The notes beneath the pieces were generated by a model. The model did no database searches. It was not told the origin of the DNA and saw nothing but the letters and a program-made list of their open reading frames with translations. From Oscillospiraceae bacterium (GTDB lineage Bacteria > Bacillota > Clostridia > Oscillospirales > UBA929): 37,200 nucleotides of DNA. Where the stretch lies: assembly GCA_031254575.1 (NCBI GenBank), contig JAIRUE010000113.1:1-37200 (forward strand). The letters run 5' to 3'. Position 1 is the stretch's first letter; the number at the start of each line of letters is the position of its first letter. A program made the position numbers and the translations under genes. This document shows, piece by piece, positions 8,039 to 31,189 of this stretch.

Positions 8039-8057
8039 GCAGCGGCGAAAAAATGCC

Positions 8058-8190
8058 GTCTTCTTCCATCCGGACTATGACCGTCGGCGCCGGGATCGCA
8101 CCGGCTCTGCGGAGAAAGCTCCGCCCGTAGGCTAAGGGCGTCGCGCCCCATCACTACCGGTGGGGACTCTCACCCCGCCCCGAAGATGCG
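8058..8190 (-). ncRNA. FMN riboswitch (RFN element)
   Basis: Reverse complement reads CTTCGGGGCGGGGTGAGAGTCCCCACCGGTAGTGATGG...CCGGTGCGATCCCGGCGCCGACGGTCATAGTCCGGATGGAAGAAG, the conserved RFN core. Confidence 0.95.
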
Positions 8191-8193
8191 CTC

Positions 8194-21942: not shown

Positions 21943-22848
21943 ATGCGCGAATCCATCATCCGCGCGCCGGAGGGGACGCGCGACCGTCTGTTTGACGAAT
22001 GCGTCCTGCGGCGGGAGCGCGAAGCCGGGCTTTTTGAGCTGTTTCAAAACCGGGGCTTTCGCGAGGTTTCCACGCCTGTCCTGGAGCATTATGAACTGTT
22101 TACCCGCACCGGCTCCCCCCTTTCGGAGGAGACAATGGTCAAAGTGCTCTCCCGATCGGGGCGCATTTGCGTCCTGCGGCCCGACAACACCGCGCCGATC
22201 GCCCGTCTGGCCGCCACACGCCTGCAAAACGAGCCGCTGCCGCTGAAGCTGTGGTACGCCCAGCCGGTTTACCGCGCGCGGGACGGCGGGTGTTTTGAGG
22301 TGCCGCAGGCGGGGGCCGAGGTCATCGGCGGAGGCGACGACGCGGAGCTTTTACTGCTGGCGCGGGAGACGGCGGCGTTTTTTTACGGGCAGACGCCGCA
22401 CATCGAAATCAGCCACGCGGGCGTTTTACAGACGCTGCTCGAGCGGATGGAGCTTGACGGCGGGCAGACCGAGCATGTTTTATCGCTTATAGAGCGTAAA
22501 AACTTCGCGGCGCTGGGCGATGAACTCCCCGGCGGCGCGCAGGGTCTTCTCAGCCTGGTGTCGCTGTCGGGCGGGGCGGAGACGCTGGACGAGGCGGCGG
22601 GGTGCGCCGGCGTCCCGATTGACAAGCCGCTGGGTGAACTGCGCGGGCTGCTCTCCGCCTTGCCGGACGGCGCCGTCACCGTCGATTTCGGGCTTGTGCC
22701 GTCGCTTTCCTACTACACAGGCGTATTTTTCCGCGGGTATGTCGGCGGCGCGGCCGGAGCCGTGCTGACCGGCGGGCGGTATGACCGTCTTCTGGGCCTT
22801 CTGGGGCGCGACCTGCCGGCTGTCGGCTTCGCCGTCCAATGGGAATGA
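21943..22848 (+). CDS. hisZ: ATP phosphoribosyltransferase regulatory subunit
   Basis: HisRS-like: APEGTRDRLFDECVLRREREAGLFELFQNRGFREVSTPVLEHYELF..VLRPDNTAPIARLAATRL..LTGGRYDRLLGLLGRDLPAVGFAV; paired with short hisG. Confidence 0.93.
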   Translation: MRESIIRAPEGTRDRLFDECVLRREREAGLFELFQNRGFREVSTPVLEHYELFTRTGSPLSEETMVKVLSRSGRICVLRPDNTAPIARLAATRLQNEPLPLKLWYAQPVYRARDGGCFEVPQAGAEVIGGGDDAELLLLARETAAFFYGQTPHIEISHAGVLQTLLERMELDGGQTEHVLSLIERKNFAALGDELPGGAQGLLSLVSLSGGAETLDEAAGCAGVPIDKPLGELRGLLSALPDGAVTVDFGLVPSLSYYTGVFFRGYVGGAAGAVLTGGRYDRLLGLLGRDLPAVGFAVQWE

Positions 22849-22907: not shown

Positions 22908-23579
22908 TTGGATACCCCCATCCGCATAGCCCTTGCCAAGGGCCGGCTTGAAAAGCAGTGCCGCGCGCTCTTCGCCCGTGCCGGGTATGACTGTTCGGCC
23001 CTTGAAAATCCCGGGCGGCGGCTGATTCACACCCTGCCCAACGGAGCGGGGCTTGCGCCGCTGGAGGCGGTGCTTGCCAAAGCACCCGATGTCGTCACCT
23101 ATGTTTCGCGCGGGGTCTGCGGCCTCGGCGTGGCGGGCAAGGACACGGTCATGGAACAGGGCGGTCCCTTTTATGAAACGCTCGATCTCAAACTGGGCGC
23201 GTGCCGCTTTGCGCTGGCCGCTCCGGAGGGAACGGTATTTTTCGGGGGCGCGGGACACAAGCGTGTCGCCACCAAATTTCCCAATATAACGCGCCGTTTT
23301 CTGTCGGAACTGGGTGTGGACGCGGAGATCATCCGCATTGAGGGCTCATGCGAGCTTGCGCCGCTGCTGGGGCTTGCCGACGCCATCGTCGATATTGTGG
23401 AAACCGGGGCTACGCTGCGGGAAAACGGGCTTGCCGTCCTGCGGGAACTGTTTCCGCTGTCGGCGCGGCTGATCGTCAACGTGGCGGCGTATAAACTGCG
23501 GCGGGCTGAAATCGACCGCCTGACCGAGAGACTGAGGGAGAGCCTTCCCCCGTCTTTGACGGGAGAAAATAAAGCCTGA
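22908..23579 (+). CDS. hisG: ATP phosphoribosyltransferase catalytic subunit (short form)
   Basis: IRIALAKGRLEKQCRALFARAGYD; VRVATKFPN-type motif HKRVATKFPNITRRFL; LADAIVDIVETGATLRENGL. TTG start. Confidence 0.95.
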   Translation: MDTPIRIALAKGRLEKQCRALFARAGYDCSALENPGRRLIHTLPNGAGLAPLEAVLAKAPDVVTYVSRGVCGLGVAGKDTVMEQGGPFYETLDLKLGACRFALAAPEGTVFFGGAGHKRVATKFPNITRRFLSELGVDAEIIRIEGSCELAPLLGLADAIVDIVETGATLRENGLAVLRELFPLSARLIVNVAAYKLRRAEIDRLTERLRESLPPSLTGENKA

Positions 23580-23593
23580 GAGGGATTAAGAGG

Positions 23594-24874
23594 ATGCTGA
23601 CGATTGTAAAAGCGGGAACGGAAGATTTTGAGGAACGCTTTGCCGCCACGGAGAGCCGCGCCGCTATCGACGCGGAGAGGGTGCGCAATGAAGTGCGCGT
23701 GATGCTGGACAACATCTTCACGCGCCGGACAGCCGCCGTCAATATCATCGCGCTGGAGCGGGACAACGCGCCGCCGCGCGAGATTCCGCGCGCCGAACTG
23801 GACGCGGCCGTGTCCGCCTGCGACCCCGTTCTGCTCGGTGACCTGCGCCGCGCGGCGCGCAACATAGAGGACTATCAAAAACACCTGCTGCCGGAAAGCG
23901 GCAGATGGTGGACTCCCGACGGCGGGTCGGCGGGGGTGTTGATAAGGCCGGTGGAACGCGCGGGACTGTATGTGCCCGGCGGCACGTCGGCGTACCCTTC
24001 GACGGTGCTGATGACGGCGATACCGGCCCGCGTCGCGGGGGTGAGGGAGATCCTTCTGTGCACGCCGCCGGGTGAGCATCTGAAACCGGAGGTTTTAGCC
24101 GCCGCGTCGATTGCCGGGGTAGACCGCGTATTCGCCATAGGCGGCGTCCCCGCCATAGCCTCTATGGCGCTGGGATTGGGCATCGTCCCGCGGTGCGACG
24201 TCGTAGCCGGTCCGGGCAACGCCTATGTCACCGAGGCCAAGCGGCAGTTGTACGGTTTTTGCGGCATTGAATCGACGGCGGGGCCAAGTGATATTCTCGT
24301 CCTGTGCGACGGTTCCGCAAACCCCGCGTGGGCCGCCGCCGACTTGCTCGGCCAGGCGGAACACGGGGCCCGTTCCCGCGCCGTGCTGGTGACGGCGGAC
24401 GAAAGTTTCGCGCGCGGGGTATGCTCCGAATTGGAGGCTCAGATCCAATCTCTCCCGCGCCGCGGGGAGGCGGAGGCGTCTTTGCGGGACTATGGCACGG
24501 CGGTCGTCGTTTCCTGCCGGGAGGAAGCGCTGACGGTCGTCAACCGCATAGCGCCGGAGCATTTGGAGATCATGGCGGACGACGCGGAAAGCTGGCTGGA
24601 CGGGATTCGGAACGCGGGCGCCGTTTTCCTGGGACCGTACAGCCCGGAACCGCTGGGCGATTACTGGGCGGGGCCCAGCCATGTGCTGCCGACAGAAGGC
24701 CACGCGCGGTTTTTCTCCCCCGTATCGGCCGAGACGTTTCTCAGGCGCGCCAGTCTGCTGTCATACGGTAAGGACGCCTTTCTGCCCATAGCGGACGGCA
24801 TAGCGCGGCTTGCCCGCTCCGAAGGGCTGGAAGCGCACGCGAAAAGCGCCGAGATAAGGGGGGATATGGGTTGA
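23594..24874 (+). CDS. hisD: histidinol dehydrogenase
   Basis: PVERAGLYVPGGTSAYPSTVLMTAIPARVAGV; DVVAGPGNAYVTEAKRQLYG; TAGPSDILVLCDGSANPAWAAADLLGQAEHG; NRIAPEHLEIM. Confidence 0.96.
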   Translation: MLTIVKAGTEDFEERFAATESRAAIDAERVRNEVRVMLDNIFTRRTAAVNIIALERDNAPPREIPRAELDAAVSACDPVLLGDLRRAARNIEDYQKHLLPESGRWWTPDGGSAGVLIRPVERAGLYVPGGTSAYPSTVLMTAIPARVAGVREILLCTPPGEHLKPEVLAAASIAGVDRVFAIGGVPAIASMALGLGIVPRCDVVAGPGNAYVTEAKRQLYGFCGIESTAGPSDILVLCDGSANPAWAAADLLGQAEHGARSRAVLVTADESFARGVCSELEAQIQSLPRRGEAEASLRDYGTAVVVSCREEALTVVNRIAPEHLEIMADDAESWLDGIRNAGAVFLGPYSPEPLGDYWAGPSHVLPTEGHARFFSPVSAETFLRRASLLSYGKDAFLPIADGIARLARSEGLEAHAKSAEIRGDMG

Positions 24875-25899
24875 CTCTGCCGGAAAAACTGAAACAGTTT
24901 ACGCCCTATCCCGCGATGACAGGGACCTTATCCGCCCGGCTGGACGGCAACGAGAGCTGTTATCCAACCGGCCTCGCGGATGAGATCGCGGAGGCCGTCC
25001 GAAGCCTTGACCTGCACCGTTATCCCGACCCGTACGCGGCGGAGGTCTGCTCGCTCGCCGAACGGTTTTGGGGCGCGCCGGAGGGCAGCGCCGTCGCCGG
25101 AAACGGTTCCGACGAGTTTATCTCCATTTCCCTGAGCGCTCTGCTGCCGCGCGGCGGCAGGCTGCTTGTCTGCGACCCCGATTTTTCGATGTATCGCTTC
25201 TACGCGTCGCTGTACGAGCTGGAATGCGTCGGTCTGGAGCGGTTTAACGGCGTTCCGGACGTAAACGAGATTATCCAGAAGGGGCAGTACGCCCACGCCG
25301 TGATCCTCTCCAATCCCTGCAATCCGACAGGACAGGCCCTGCCGCTCAAAGACATATTGCGCATTGCCGAAACGCTGCCCTGCCCTGTTCTGCTGGACGA
25401 GGCGTACATGGATTTCTGGGAGGGAGGGCGGCACTCGGCGCTGCCGTATATCAATCGTTATACAAACCTTATCATCTTCAAAACCTGCTCCAAAAATCTC
25501 GCGCTGGCGGGGATACGCCTGGGCTTTGCCTTTGCCGGGGAGGAATTGCGGAACGTCCTGCTCACAGTCAAGTCGCCGTATAATGTGAGCGTTCTGGCAC
25601 AGGCAGCCGGCGCGGCCGTACTGCGCCGTCCCGAATGGATACGCGAAAACACGCGGCGCCTTTGCGAGGCCAAGAACAGGCTGTATGAGCGTCTGAGCGG
25701 ATGGGCGCGGAACTCCGGGGCGCTGGTTACCGACACCGACACGAATTTCGTGCTGCTGGCCCTGCCGGACGCCGAAGGGTGGTTCAAATACTTGCAATCG
25801 CGGAGTATTGGCGTGCGGCTGATTGGCAGCTCTCTGCGCGTCACGGCGGGTACGGAGAGAGAAACCGATGCGCTGATGGAAGCTCTTAACAACCGATAG
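24871..25899 (+). CDS. hisC: histidinol-phosphate aminotransferase
   Basis: RLDGNESCYP; VILSNPCNPTGQALPL; LLDEAYMDF; FKTCSKNLALAGIRLGFAF; TTG start overlapping the hisD end. Confidence 0.95.
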   Translation: MTLPEKLKQFTPYPAMTGTLSARLDGNESCYPTGLADEIAEAVRSLDLHRYPDPYAAEVCSLAERFWGAPEGSAVAGNGSDEFISISLSALLPRGGRLLVCDPDFSMYRFYASLYELECVGLERFNGVPDVNEIIQKGQYAHAVILSNPCNPTGQALPLKDILRIAETLPCPVLLDEAYMDFWEGGRHSALPYINRYTNLIIFKTCSKNLALAGIRLGFAFAGEELRNVLLTVKSPYNVSVLAQAAGAAVLRRPEWIRENTRRLCEAKNRLYERLSGWARNSGALVTDTDTNFVLLALPDAEGWFKYLQSRSIGVRLIGSSLRVTAGTERETDALMEALNNR

Positions 25900-25978: not shown

Positions 25979-26533
25979 ATGACCCGTAAAACCAAAGAGA
26001 CGGACATTACCGTCGAGCTGTCGCTTAACGGCGGCGGTATCGGCGCCGACACCGGAGTCGGTTTTTTTGACCACATGCTGACCACGATGGCGTTTCACGC
26101 CGGATGGGGTCTTGCGGTCAGGGCCGACGGTGATTTGGGGGTGGACGCGCACCATACCGTGGAAGACGTGGGGATCGTTCTGGGGCAGGTTTTGCGGGAA
26201 GCGCTGCCCGAAAACCGCGCGCGCTTCGGCCACGCGTTTGTCCCGATGGACGAGGCGCTGGGCTTTGCCGCCGCCGACGCGGGCGGGCGGGCGTTTTTGC
26301 GTTTCGACGCGGCGTTTCCAAACAGGTTGCTGGGAGGTTATGATACCGCGCTGACCAAAGAGTTTTTCCGCGCTCTGTGCCACAACGCCATGCTGACGCT
26401 GCACCTGCGCGTTGAGGGGGAAGATGCGCATCATATGACCGAGGCCCTGTTCAAGGCCGCCGGCGCCGCGCTGCGCCGGGCCTGTTCCCCTCAAGCCGGC
26501 GCCGGCGCGGTTTCGACCAAGGGAGTTTTCTGA
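25979..26533 (+). CDS. hisB: imidazoleglycerol-phosphate dehydratase
   Basis: GVGFFDHMLTTMAFHAGW; DAHHTVEDVGIVLGQ; EGEDAHHMTEALFKAAGAALRRA. Confidence 0.95.
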   Translation: MTRKTKETDITVELSLNGGGIGADTGVGFFDHMLTTMAFHAGWGLAVRADGDLGVDAHHTVEDVGIVLGQVLREALPENRARFGHAFVPMDEALGFAAADAGGRAFLRFDAAFPNRLLGGYDTALTKEFFRALCHNAMLTLHLRVEGEDAHHMTEALFKAAGAALRRACSPQAGAGAVSTKGVF

Positions 26534-26535
26534 AG

Positions 26536-27570
26536 ATGGAAATCTATCCGTCGATAGACATTAAAGACGGCCAATGCGTCCGTCTGCTCCGGGGCGATTT
26601 TGACACCGTACACACCGTCGCGCCCGACACCGCGGAGGTGGCGGTCTCATACCGCGACGCGGGCGCGAATGTCATCCACGTTGTTGACCTCGACGGCGCC
26701 AAAGACGGCATCCGTAAAAACGCCGCGCCGGCGGAGGCGATCGTCCGCGCCGCAAAGCCCGCTGCTGTGGAACTGGGCGGCGGGCTGCGCCGGATGGCGG
26801 ATCTGGAGGAAGCGGACAGACTGGGTGTCTGGCGCTTTATCATCGGCTCAGCGGCGCTCTCCGACCCCGGCTTTGTCAGGGAAGCGGTCAGGCGGTACGG
26901 CAGCCGCGTAGCCGTCGGGATCGACGCGCGGGACGGGCGCGTACGTGTTCGCGGCTGGACCGGAGAGACGGGGCGGGATGAAATGGAGTTTGCCCGCGAA
27001 GTGGCCTCGTACGGCGTCGGAACGCTCATATACACCGACATCGAGGTCGACGGCACGCTGGCGGGCCCGTCGCTGAAACGGCTTGCCGCGCTGCGCGCCG
27101 CGCTGCCGGAACTGTTCCTGGTCGCCAGCGGCGGCGTATCGTCGGTGGAAGACGTGCGCGCGCTGCGCCGGATGGGGATTGACGCCGCCGTCGCGGGAAA
27201 GGCGCTGTATACGGGCGATCTGCCGCTTAAGGACGCGCTGTTTGAGGCGCGATACGGCCATCTGTTTGACAACGCGCCCCTCATCCCGGCAATCACGCAG
27301 GACGAGGAGACCAAAGAGGTGCTGATACTGGGCTATATGTCACCCGAGGCTCTGCGGCTGACACTTCAAACGAGGCTGGTGACGTTTTTCAGCCGCAGCC
27401 GTCAAAAACTCTGGGTCAAGGGCGAGACGTCCGGCAATTTTCTGGACGTCGTGAGCATTGCCGCCGACTGTGAGGACAATTCCCTGCTGATCCGCTGCCG
27501 CCCGCGCGGCCCGGCCTGCCATACGGGGCATACGAGCTGCTTCTACAACGAGATTTTTTTGGGAGGCTGA
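26536..27570 (+). CDS. HisA-HisI fusion (ProFAR isomerase + phosphoribosyl-AMP cyclohydrolase)
   Basis: N-term YPSIDIKDGQCVRLLRGDFDTVHTVAPDTAEVAVSYRDAGANVIHVVDLDGAKDG (HisA); C-term VLILGYMSPEALRLTLQTRLVTFFSRSRQKLWVKGETSGNFLDVVSIAADCEDNSLLIRCRPRGPACHTGHTSCF (HisI); one uninterrupted 344-aa frame. Confidence 0.95.
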   Translation: MEIYPSIDIKDGQCVRLLRGDFDTVHTVAPDTAEVAVSYRDAGANVIHVVDLDGAKDGIRKNAAPAEAIVRAAKPAAVELGGGLRRMADLEEADRLGVWRFIIGSAALSDPGFVREAVRRYGSRVAVGIDARDGRVRVRGWTGETGRDEMEFAREVASYGVGTLIYTDIEVDGTLAGPSLKRLAALRAALPELFLVASGGVSSVEDVRALRRMGIDAAVAGKALYTGDLPLKDALFEARYGHLFDNAPLIPAITQDEETKEVLILGYMSPEALRLTLQTRLVTFFSRSRQKLWVKGETSGNFLDVVSIAADCEDNSLLIRCRPRGPACHTGHTSCFYNEIFLGG

Positions 27571-27574
27571 TCCG

Positions 27575-27901
27575 GTGAACGATGTGATGGAAGCACTCTA
27601 TCAAACGATAGAATCCCGCAAAACGGAACCTGTGGAGAACTCCTACACCAATTATCTCCTTTCACAGGGACTTGATAAAATTTGCAAAAAGGTGGGGGAG
27701 GAGTGCGCCGAAACGATTGTCGCGGCTAAAAACGGCGACCCCGCGCCACTGGCCGGCGAGGTCGCGGACGTTCTCTATCATTTGTTAGTATTGCTGGCGG
27801 AGTGCGGCGTCGCGTGGGCCGAGGTGCGGGATGAACTGGAGAGGCGCGCCGCGAAAATCGGGAACAAGAAGGTATTTCATGATGTTGACAGAGACACCTG
27901 A
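27575..27901 (+). CDS. hisE: phosphoribosyl-ATP pyrophosphatase
   Basis: [71 protein letters not shown] start. Confidence 0.95.
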
Positions 27902-28547: not shown

Positions 28548-29411
28548 TCACACATTTCCCACAAACACGTTTTTCAAAAACCGGCCCGCGACATCCCGGA
28601 GGCGGAAAAGCGTCTCCACCGGCGTGGGCTGTCTGTCCGCGTACCGGTAGCGCGGGAAAAAGCGGCTCAAATGAAGGGGTATCTCCGGGTCGAGTGAGGC
28701 GAGCCACGCCGAGAGAGGCTCTATATCATCCTCATTCTCCCCCGGAATGACAAGCGTGGTGACCTCCACATGGCAGCGCCCGCGGCTGAGAGTGATCGTC
28801 TGTTTGACCGTCTCCAGATCCCCGCCCAGACCGCGGTAGAAATCCCCGGTGAAGCCTTTGAGGTCGATATTCATGGCGTCTATTAAGGGCAGCAGCTCTT
28901 CCAACGGTCCTTTGTTTATCATGCCGTTGGTTACCAGGACGTTGCAAAGCCCCGCGCCGCGGATCAGCTTTGCGCAGTCAAGGACAAACTCAACCCCGAT
29001 CAACGGTTCGTTATAGGTGTAGGCGACGCCGATATTCCCGTCGGGAACGGCCTCTACGGCGAGAGCCGCCACCTGTTCCGGCGAGAGCGTCTTTGTCCGC
29101 CGGTGCCCGAACTCCGCCGAGAGTTCAAAATTCTGACAGAAAGGGCAGCGCAGATTGCACCCGACGCCGCCGACAGAGAGTATCCGTTTGCCCGGGTGGA
29201 ACAGCCGCAGCGGCTTTTTCTCAATAGGGTCCAGCGCGACCGACGACACCTTCCCGTAAGCGGTATACGCCACCTTGCCGGCGCGGTTTTCGCGCACGCC
29301 GCAAAAGCCCGTCCCTCCCTCCGGGATGACGCAGCGGTGCGGGCAGAGGCCGCAGCGGACGGCGGGGTCTCCGCCGCGCCCCGGTACAGCCGGAGCCGTC
29401 TGGTCACTCAT
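28548..29411 (-). CDS. amrS: AmmeMemoRadiSam system radical SAM enzyme
   Basis: CGLCPHRCVIPEGGTGFCGVRENRAGKVAYTAYGKVSSVALDPIEKKPLRLFHPGKRILSVGGVGCNLRCPFCQNFELS (CxxxCxxC). Confidence 0.93.
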   Translation of the reverse strand: MSDQTAPAVPGRGGDPAVRCGLCPHRCVIPEGGTGFCGVRENRAGKVAYTAYGKVSSVALDPIEKKPLRLFHPGKRILSVGGVGCNLRCPFCQNFELSAEFGHRRTKTLSPEQVAALAVEAVPDGNIGVAYTYNEPLIGVEFVLDCAKLIRGAGLCNVLVTNGMINKGPLEELLPLIDAMNIDLKGFTGDFYRGLGGDLETVKQTITLSRGRCHVEVTTLVIPGENEDDIEPLSAWLASLDPEIPLHLSRFFPRYRYADRQPTPVETLFRLRDVAGRFLKNVFVGNV

Positions 29412-30777
29412 GCCGCACGACCTCGAACCGCTCGATTTTGACAGGGGCGCCGTCGGGGATACCTCCTTTGTTCCGCGCGATGGCAAGCTGTTCCTCCACC
29501 GTATCGACCCCTTCCAGATCCGGCAGCAGCAAGCCGCGCCTGTGACCGCTCGAAACAATGACGCCGTAACGCTTCACGTCCAGCCCGGCGGGGCTTGCGA
29601 CGGTCTCAGGAGGGGAGAGGACGTCCACTTTGTAGGTGAGGTGAGGCAATTCGGAGGCTGTCACCGGGTCGAAACGGTTGTCATGCAACCCGGCCGAAAC
29701 GGCGTTTTGAATGATTTCAGCCGCCACACAGCCGGCCGTCGGGGCGATGGTACCCACACAGCCGCGCAGACGCCCGTATTTGTGCAGGGAAACGAAAGCC
29801 CCGGCGCGGACGTTCATCAGTTCCTCCGGCAAACCGTCCGGCAGGGGCAGCGTCTTGCCCGTTTGCACGGTGTATTCCAAAGACCGGCGGGCCAGAGCGC
29901 GGTAGGCGTCCTCGGAGCTTTGCCGCTCCCGCGCCCCGGCCAAAGCCGTCTCCTCATACTGCTCAAGAAAATCGCGCTTTTCATCCGGCCCGCCCGGCGA
30001 AAAGGACGCGGCGGCATATCCCACGCCGAAAGGGGCTTCGTAGGACAGGCGCCGGGCGGCGACGGCGAGGCGGTCAAAACAGCCCGCCAGCACCATGAAG
30101 GAGTTGTACCCGCACTCGGCGGCGCGCTCCCGCAGGCTTTCGGTGACGGCAAAGAGCGCAAGGAAGTCCCCGGTGGCAAAAATGCGCGTTATCTCGCCGT
30201 CAAACACTTCGCTCTCGGGCGCGTAGCCGTACGACCCGCCGTGTTTGTGGGAGAGGTCGCCGCTGGCGATCAGGACGGCTTTCGTCCGCTCCGCCGCCCG
30301 CGCGACGCATTGCCCGAGGCGGTAATGCTCCGACGGGTCAAAGCCGGACTGTGAGACGCGCACCGTTTTATAGTCCTGATAATGCCGGTTGATAAACCAC
30401 ATGGGCACCATGACCCCGTGGTCGAGAGCCGCGTCCCGCTCGCCCCGCGTCCCGGCCCGGATATTGCTCTGTCCGGCGAGGCGGATGATCTCCTCTGCCA
30501 TTTCGGTGTCGTACACCGCCTCAAGGCACGCCTCGCGGGCGCCGAAACGGGAAAAGCTGCCCCTCGCGCCGCCGCCCGGGGAGATGTGGAAGTAGTCGGA
30601 ATAGAGTACGCTGTGCGGCGTGACAAAGATAACCGTCTCGGGGGCGAGGGCGGCGATCTCCCGCGCGGCTTCGTCAAAAGCGGCGAGGGTCTTTGACACT
30701 TGCGGTTTATCGCCGTCCCCGACGCCGGGCACGGCCAGCGGAGGATGCGGGAGGGCGTACGCGCGGAGAATGGACAT
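29404..30777 (-). CDS. AmmeMemoRadiSam protein B (Memo-like) + protein A (AMMECR1) fusion
   Basis: N-term YALPHPPLAVPGVG..VFVTPHSVLYSDYFHIS..DHGVMVPMWFI..VLIASGDLSHK (class III extradiol/Memo); C-term AFVSLHKYGRLRGCVGTIAPT..DNRFDPVTASELPHLTYKVDVLSPPE (AMMECR1). Confidence 0.93.
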   Translation of the reverse strand: MSILRAYALPHPPLAVPGVGDGDKPQVSKTLAAFDEAAREIAALAPETVIFVTPHSVLYSDYFHISPGGGARGSFSRFGAREACLEAVYDTEMAEEIIRLAGQSNIRAGTRGERDAALDHGVMVPMWFINRHYQDYKTVRVSQSGFDPSEHYRLGQCVARAAERTKAVLIASGDLSHKHGGSYGYAPESEVFDGEITRIFATGDFLALFAVTESLRERAAECGYNSFMVLAGCFDRLAVAARRLSYEAPFGVGYAAASFSPGGPDEKRDFLEQYEETALAGARERQSSEDAYRALARRSLEYTVQTGKTLPLPDGLPEELMNVRAGAFVSLHKYGRLRGCVGTIAPTAGCVAAEIIQNAVSAGLHDNRFDPVTASELPHLTYKVDVLSPPETVASPAGLDVKRYGVIVSSGHRRGLLLPDLEGVDTVEEQLAIARNKGGIPDGAPVKIERFEVVRHE

Positions 30778-30910: not shown

Positions 30911-31189
30911 TTATTGCCCGTATACGTCAACGCGTGTTCCCGTGCGGGAAAGCATAAGTCTCAGCCTGCCACCGTCAACCTTGTATACCAACACCCAATC
31001 ATCGGCGATATGACAGCCTCGGCACCCGCTCCATTGCCCTTTGAGCGGGTGGTCACGATGCCGTGGTTCAAGCGGGGCTTGCCGTAACAGCAGCAAAACA
31101 ACCGCGTCGAGCCTTGTTGTGTCATAACCCCTGCGTATCAGCAAATCATAATCCCGCTTAAACTGGTTGGATAGTTCGGGTTTAAGCAT
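30911..31189 (-). CDS. YafQ/RelE-type mRNA interferase toxin
   Basis: SNQFKRDYDLLIRRGYDTTRLDAVVLLLLRQAPLEPRHRDHPLKGQWSGCRGCHIADDWVLVYKVDGGRLRLMLSRTGTRVDVYG. Confidence 0.88.
   Translation of the reverse strand: MLKPELSNQFKRDYDLLIRRGYDTTRLDAVVLLLLRQAPLEPRHRDHPLKGQWSGCRGCHIADDWVLVYKVDGGRLRLMLSRTGTRVDVYGQ

Follow-up and report, generated by a model that had tools for sequence, protein, structure and literature searches.

The histidine operon of the window

The analysed window, a stretch of 37,200 nucleotides, carries on its forward strand a histidine operon in the order hisZ-hisG-hisD-hisC-hisB-[hisA-hisI]-hisE. This is the order given by an earlier sequence-only reading of the same DNA, and NCBIfam models support hisZ, hisG, hisD, hisC, hisB and hisE individually. 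The operon begins with hisZ (21943..22848; TIGR00443, 213.9 bits), coding for the regulatory subunit of the ATP phosphoribosyltransferase, with 301 residues from the ATG at 21943, which is the likely start. It is followed by hisG (22908..23579; TIGR00070, 181 bits, over the cut-off), coding for ATP phosphoribosyltransferase of step 1, hisD (23594..24874; TIGR00069, 437 bits, over the cut-off) for histidinol dehydrogenase of steps 9-10, hisC (24871..25899; TIGR01141, 217 bits) for histidinol-phosphate transaminase, and hisB (25979..26533; PF00475, E 5e-53; NCBIfam HisB models, 201-219 bits) for IGP dehydratase, which acts in the step after HisHF. A single frame coding for 344 residues (26536..27570), annotated with Pfam and NCBIfam as a predicted bifunctional ProFAR isomerase and PR-AMP cyclohydrolase, lies next, and hisE for PR-ATP diphosphatase of step 2 (27575..27901; TIGR03188, 106.5 bits, over the cut-off) closes the operon as a separate gene. 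The fused frame is separated from hisB by 2 nt and from hisE by 4 nt, which leaves no room for hisH or hisF, and the reported absence of both genes from the operon thus holds. An Rfam scan upstream of hisZ revealed no riboswitch and no T-box.

Elsewhere in the window, on the reverse strand, an FMN riboswitch was found at 8054-8191 (Rfam RF00050, 97 bits). By eye, a radical-SAM activase-like gene adjoins a gene for a 457-residue protein that is an apparent Memo-AMMECR1 fusion (28548-30777), and a 92-residue open reading frame at 30911-31189 is similar to RelE-type toxins of toxin-antitoxin pairs.

Domains and residues of the HisA-HisI fusion

HisI performs step 3 of the pathway, the conversion of PR-AMP to ProFAR, and HisA performs step 4, from ProFAR to PRFAR. 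Since HisI makes what HisA consumes, the fusion joins consecutive pathway steps. The frame had been proposed to hold a whole HisA followed by a whole HisI core, and both Pfam and NCBIfam bear this out, with a complete HisA at residues 2-229 and a complete HisI at approximately 244-340. The Pfam domain His_biosynth (PF00977; 26539..27222, 225.9 bits) covers residues 2-229 with an E-value of 1.4e-66, and PRA-CH covers residues 265-337 with an E-value of 1.8e-29, the NCBIfam match stretching the HisI part to residues 244-340 (27265..27555). Against TIGR00007 the HisA half scored 227.3 bits, marginally below the cut-off of 228.95; its domain is full-length and both catalytic residues, Asp8 and Asp130, are present and invariant across 19 fusions. 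The HisI half has the Cys-Cys-Cys zinc ligands (C312, C328, C335), the general base H329 and the WxKGETS motif in the form WVKGETS, the roles of these residues being taken from PMC8102479.

The metal-binding Asp residues of HisI have been described as universally conserved (PMC8102479). In the window genome, the D-x-D-x-D triad of the Mg site reads D311-E313-N315, the motif D-C-D-x-D having become D-C-E-D-N (27466-27480). The same D-E-N is present in G001, D-Y-N (as D-C-Y-H-N) in the sister species G002 and G005, and the triad is intact in G003, G004, G011 and the fusions of family f23, so that four of the six genomes of the genus (g1) have an altered site. Despite the altered triad, membership of the HisI half in PF01502 is clear. 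No HisI besides the fusion was found in the window genome; as the sole HisI it is predicted to work, and this half is hence expected to be functional, perhaps with a changed metal dependence.

The stretch between the domains amounts to about 10-30 residues across the fusions. AlphaFold2, run on the alignment of 19 fusions, gave a model with a mean pLDDT of 93.0, a pTM of 0.89 and no residue below 50, in which the HisA half resembles solved HisA/PriA structures, its closest solved folds. A scan of NCBIfam found no model for HisA and HisI combined, and annotation may therefore recognise just one of the two halves, HisA or HisI, in such proteins.

Spread and origin of the fusion

An unbroken fusion was present in each of the six genomes examined within the genus, with 61-74% identity between the window protein and its five counterparts, and synonymous change greatly exceeds non-synonymous change (pN 0.16-0.17 against pS 0.48-0.61), as expected under purifying selection. 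A sequencing deletion as the source of the frame is excluded by its intactness in six species under such selection. Among 394 sampled genomes of the order, HisA and HisI were found fused in family f1 (the six genomes of the genus and G011), f6 (G155), f7 (G023, G047) and f23 (eight genomes), as well as in G062, which is probably a mixed bin (4.9 Mb, 7% contamination). In f23, hisA and hisI are adjacent yet unfused in five more genomes. The check across relatives that the sequence-only reading had called for thus established the architecture as real and intact, but not as a peculiarity of one genome. On the HisA tree the fused state requires six changes, at least three of which are forced by well-supported branches; the fusion arose at least three times, with convergent origins in f6, f7 and f23.

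The earlier proposal that hisA and hisI came to lie together once hisF had been lost agrees well with the gene orders. In none of the fused cases observed in the order does hisF lie between hisA and hisI, and family f1 provides a series of arrangements: hisA-hisF-hisI in G015 (and in G016 as far as the contig end), adjacent unfused hisA-hisI in G006, G010 and G013, an almost zero gap between end and start in G008, and the fused state. This series supports the departure of hisF as the first event and the fusion as the second. With its intermediates and repeated origins, the joining of two consecutive steps in HisA-HisI is a clear example of gene fusion brought about by the loss of a gene from an operon.

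Relocated hisH and hisF and their neighbours

It had been suggested that IGP synthase must be encoded elsewhere, and the whole-genome search placed hisH and hisF side by side on contig C108 of the window genome, with hisF on the reverse strand (L036:6035-6844). Loss of hisHF from the genome is hence excluded. The suggestion stands as to the location of the genes, but the HisF concerned is not an ordinary one, its general base Asp130 being replaced.

On C108 the pair is flanked by guaA, pyrG and nadE on one side and by dapL, gatC, purL and gatA on the other. Similar neighbours were found in related genomes: carB, guaA and pyrG with dapL, gatC, purL and gatA in G003, pyrG and nadE with gatC, purL, gatA and gatB in G007, carB and guaA in G013, glmS and glnA in G008, and asnA or dapL in G093, G144 and G155 (glnA, glmS, asnA and glnN were assigned by eye from the sequence). 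In f7 an ordinary hisHF pair lies beside guaA, again as judged by eye. Outside the operon, hisHF appears to have joined a gene set that uses ammonia or glutamine as a common substrate.

The five f1 loci (L036, L040, L043, L045 and L044) together hold carB, guaA, pyrG, nadE, hisHF, gatCAB, purL and dapL, with glnA and glmS in G008, a grouping of genes by nitrogen donor and not by pathway. A literature search for glutamine amidotransferase gene clusters with hisH returned nothing relevant. A second variant HisF, without HisH, is encoded in G003 (contig C7, L039:6984-7766) between an aminotransferase-like gene and an apparent type III glutamine synthetase gene.

Sequence and predicted structure of the variant HisF

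The HisF of C108 aligns to HisF over its full length and has Gln at position 130, Asp at position 103 and Asp at position 146 (T. maritima numbering is used throughout for HisF). In HisF, D11 serves as the general acid and D130 as the general base (PMC11350729); the variant keeps D11 and has lost D130. Among 132 HisF sequences, 20 carry D103/Q130, 111 carry N103/D130 and one carries S103/D130. The pair is thus found in all 20 variants and in none of the 112 other HisFs, no sequence has a single change, and Asp146 as well as the replacement of D130 by Gln occurs in 20 of 20 variants. Most variant members also have A20, and the substitution G20A is known to lower kcat in T. maritima HisF (PMC11350729).

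The variant clade falls within a fully supported branch together with proteins of Syntrophaceae, Desulfobacterales, Pseudomonadales and Poribacteria. The two Poribacteria likewise carry D103/Q130 and possess HisA, with this protein as their sole HisF; in two Syntrophaceae genomes the sister protein, which retains N103/D130, is again the only HisF. Against the NCBIfam HisF model (TIGR00735) the variant scored 271.5 bits, below the curated cut-off of 294.55, yet this was the top-scoring model; WbuZ gave 224 bits (cut-off 299.7) and AglZ/HisF2 186 bits (cut-off 310). As a sugar-amidation protein of the WbuZ/HisF2 kind, the variant is excluded by these scores and by its neighbours. The structural model has a mean pLDDT of 92.5 and its top Foldseek matches are HisF, the best PDB match being HisF-LUCA; as modelled, residue 103 would end strand 4 and residue 130 would lie in strand 5. 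Purifying selection acts on the variant HisF as well (pN 0.07-0.17 against pS 0.50-0.70). The C108 HisH scored 191.8 bits against TIGR01855, over the cut-off of 105.4, retains the Cys-His-Glu triad and has diverged along with its partner, PHMGWN having become PQMGWN and YFVHSY having become YFVNSY.

The change at position 130 raises the question of another reaction, as a non-negative residue in place of Asp130 gives HisF a moderate TrpF activity (PMC2667513). The variant might accordingly be a TrpF-like phosphoribosylanthranilate isomerase or a bifunctional HisF/TrpF enzyme, a reading to which the absence of an adjacent HisH in G001, in G021 and beside the second copy of G003 would conform, as would the lack of a TrpF match in 1.28 of the 2.14 Mb of the window genome, an approximate result obtained with a T. 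maritima TrpF query. However, the variant does not merely lose a charge but gains an acid at 103, and it is usually paired with HisH, which would be superfluous for an isomerase. TrpF may well exist in this genome, because a TrpA-like gene is located on contig C17 at about 19.5 kb and a trp operon would continue along C17 past the stretch covered by the search. We regard an isomerase role as highly improbable.

Does the variant make IGP?

The distribution of the two forms of HisF argues for the variant as an IGP synthase. No canonical HisF occurs beside it in 14 of the 17 HisA-bearing genomes that carry it, both Poribacteria included, whereas in the first sample the canonical HisF was found in each of 28 HisA-bearing relatives outside the family. 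The mutual exclusion has a Fisher P of about 4e-8 with G011 counted against it, a value that overstates independence since the genomes are related. The enzyme encoded by hisB consumes the product of HisHF, and hisB is retained in all variant genomes of the order that have HisA and were tested. The surveyed genomes are draft assemblies. Canonical and variant HisF occur together in three of them, G012, G062 and G394. In G012 (Oscillospiraceae bacterium Th196P3bin47, contig WRLW01000200.1), which belongs to the same family as the window genome, the variant was found on contig C200 (3.4 kb) and its tail on contig C183 (3.6 kb); a check for misbinning gave a G+C content of 58-59% in all three contigs and no separation by base composition. 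From the sequence data, the variant HisH-HisF pair probably functions as an IGP synthase.

A variant HisF was kept in G021, where hisA, hisB, hisD and hisH were not detected; given this genome, the variant may have another function. The intact G021 gene (contig C19, L053:2181-2987) lies beside a long open reading frame that also neighbours the variant of G062. Together with the three genomes that hold both forms, the loss of the general base and the position of nadE next to the pair in the window genome and G007, G021 would fit a repurposed paralogue that gives ammonia to another enzyme such as NadE; IGP would then come from some unknown enzyme, if it is formed. Yet nadE is a neighbour in these two genomes only and is replaced elsewhere by carB, guaA, pyrG, asnA, glnN, glnA or glmS, and single-domain NadE mostly draws on free ammonia in vivo (PMC3376133). 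The higher score for HisF than for WbuZ and AglZ/HisF2 and the strong mutual exclusion with canonical HisF likewise speak against an ammonia-supplying paralogue, which we therefore consider unlikely.

Two further genomes depart from the common pattern: G001 has the variant HisF and no HisH was found in it, and in G011 of family f1, a 94% complete assembly, the fusion, hisB and hisD are present while neither HisF nor HisH was found. The latter genome and the eroded HisI metal site within the genus could be taken as signs of a pathway broken at step 5, the operon being a decaying remnant and histidine uptake supporting the cell. Such decay is hard to reconcile with the intact, closely spaced operon genes of the window, with hisB and hisD retained across the genus and with the purifying selection acting on both the fusion and the variant HisF, and we give it the least credence of the readings considered.

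Proposed course of events and significance

We favour, as fairly likely, a working histidine pathway in which a bifunctional HisA-HisI is followed at step 5 by the diverged HisH-HisF of C108. Under this proposal hisH and hisF would have departed from the operon, after which hisA and hisI fused. The fused enzyme would catalyse steps 3 and 4, and step 5 would be carried out by the diverged pair from within its cluster of glutamine- and ammonia-consuming genes. The carboxylate of HisF would have shifted from strand 5, where Asp130 became Gln, to the neighbouring strand 4, where Asn103 became Asp, possibly with assistance from Asp146, an invariant residue of the strand-5 hairpin, and the cyclase reaction would be retained in a rearranged active site. 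The fusion, the gene locations, the invariant residue swap and, in most genomes, the mutual exclusion with canonical HisF are observed; that the fusion is bifunctional, that the variant acts as an IGP synthase and what D103 does are inferred. The fuller claim of a natural IGP synthase lineage with a permuted site, its base moved from D130 to D103, and of a hisHF relocation that opened the way to HisA-HisI, we hold to be evenly poised.

Among the leading models for the study of barrel enzymes, ammonia channelling and allostery is HisF, whose catalytic base is taken to be D130. The altered HisF is a more surprising finding than the fusion, and the natural clade, whose members all carry D103/Q130 in place of N103/D130, allows a direct test of the mobility of a catalytic carboxylate on a (beta-alpha)8 barrel.

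Comparison with known systems

Five his gene fusions were listed by Fani et al. 2007 (PMC1963479), and HisA-HisI is not among them; the parts of a 2023 review available to us added no HisA-HisI fusion. A search of 5.39 million papers of the open literature with hyphenated fusion names found no description of HisA-HisI, which is accordingly a his gene fusion not found described in the open literature. As in HisIE, HisNB, HIS4 (HisIED) and HIS7 (HisHF), neighbouring his genes have been fused, and the known fusions often arose after the genes had moved progressively closer and come to overlap within a compact operon, with a convergent origin in the case of HisIE like that of HisA-HisI (PMC1963479). 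Unlike them, the window protein joins HisA with HisI, the enzymes of steps 4 and 3 in reverse pathway order, and leaves hisE separate.

HisH2/HisF2 proteins (WbuY/WbuZ, AglZ/HisF2) are glutaminase pairs that feed sugar amidotransferases. The variant pair resembles them in its location outside the his operon, but its HisF falls well short of the cut-offs for WbuZ and AglZ, and none of the neighbouring genes was recognised as a sugar amidotransferase. Compared with the canonical HisF-HisH of T. maritima (PDB 1THF, 1GPW), the variant has the same predicted fold, HisF retains D11, K19, R5, E46, K99, D51 and the D176 motif, and HisH retains its catalytic triad. The differences are the replacement of N103 by Asp and of D130 by Gln, the C-terminal SIFHFGE region, which reads SMLYSPRxERNY, the altered PQMGWN and YFVNSY motifs of HisH and the position of the pair in an amidotransferase cluster. 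With the HisF mutant D130V, which has TrpF activity (PDB 4EWN; PMC2667513), the variant shares the loss of charge at position 130; unlike that mutant, it is natural, carries a paired acid at position 103 and is usually accompanied by HisH.
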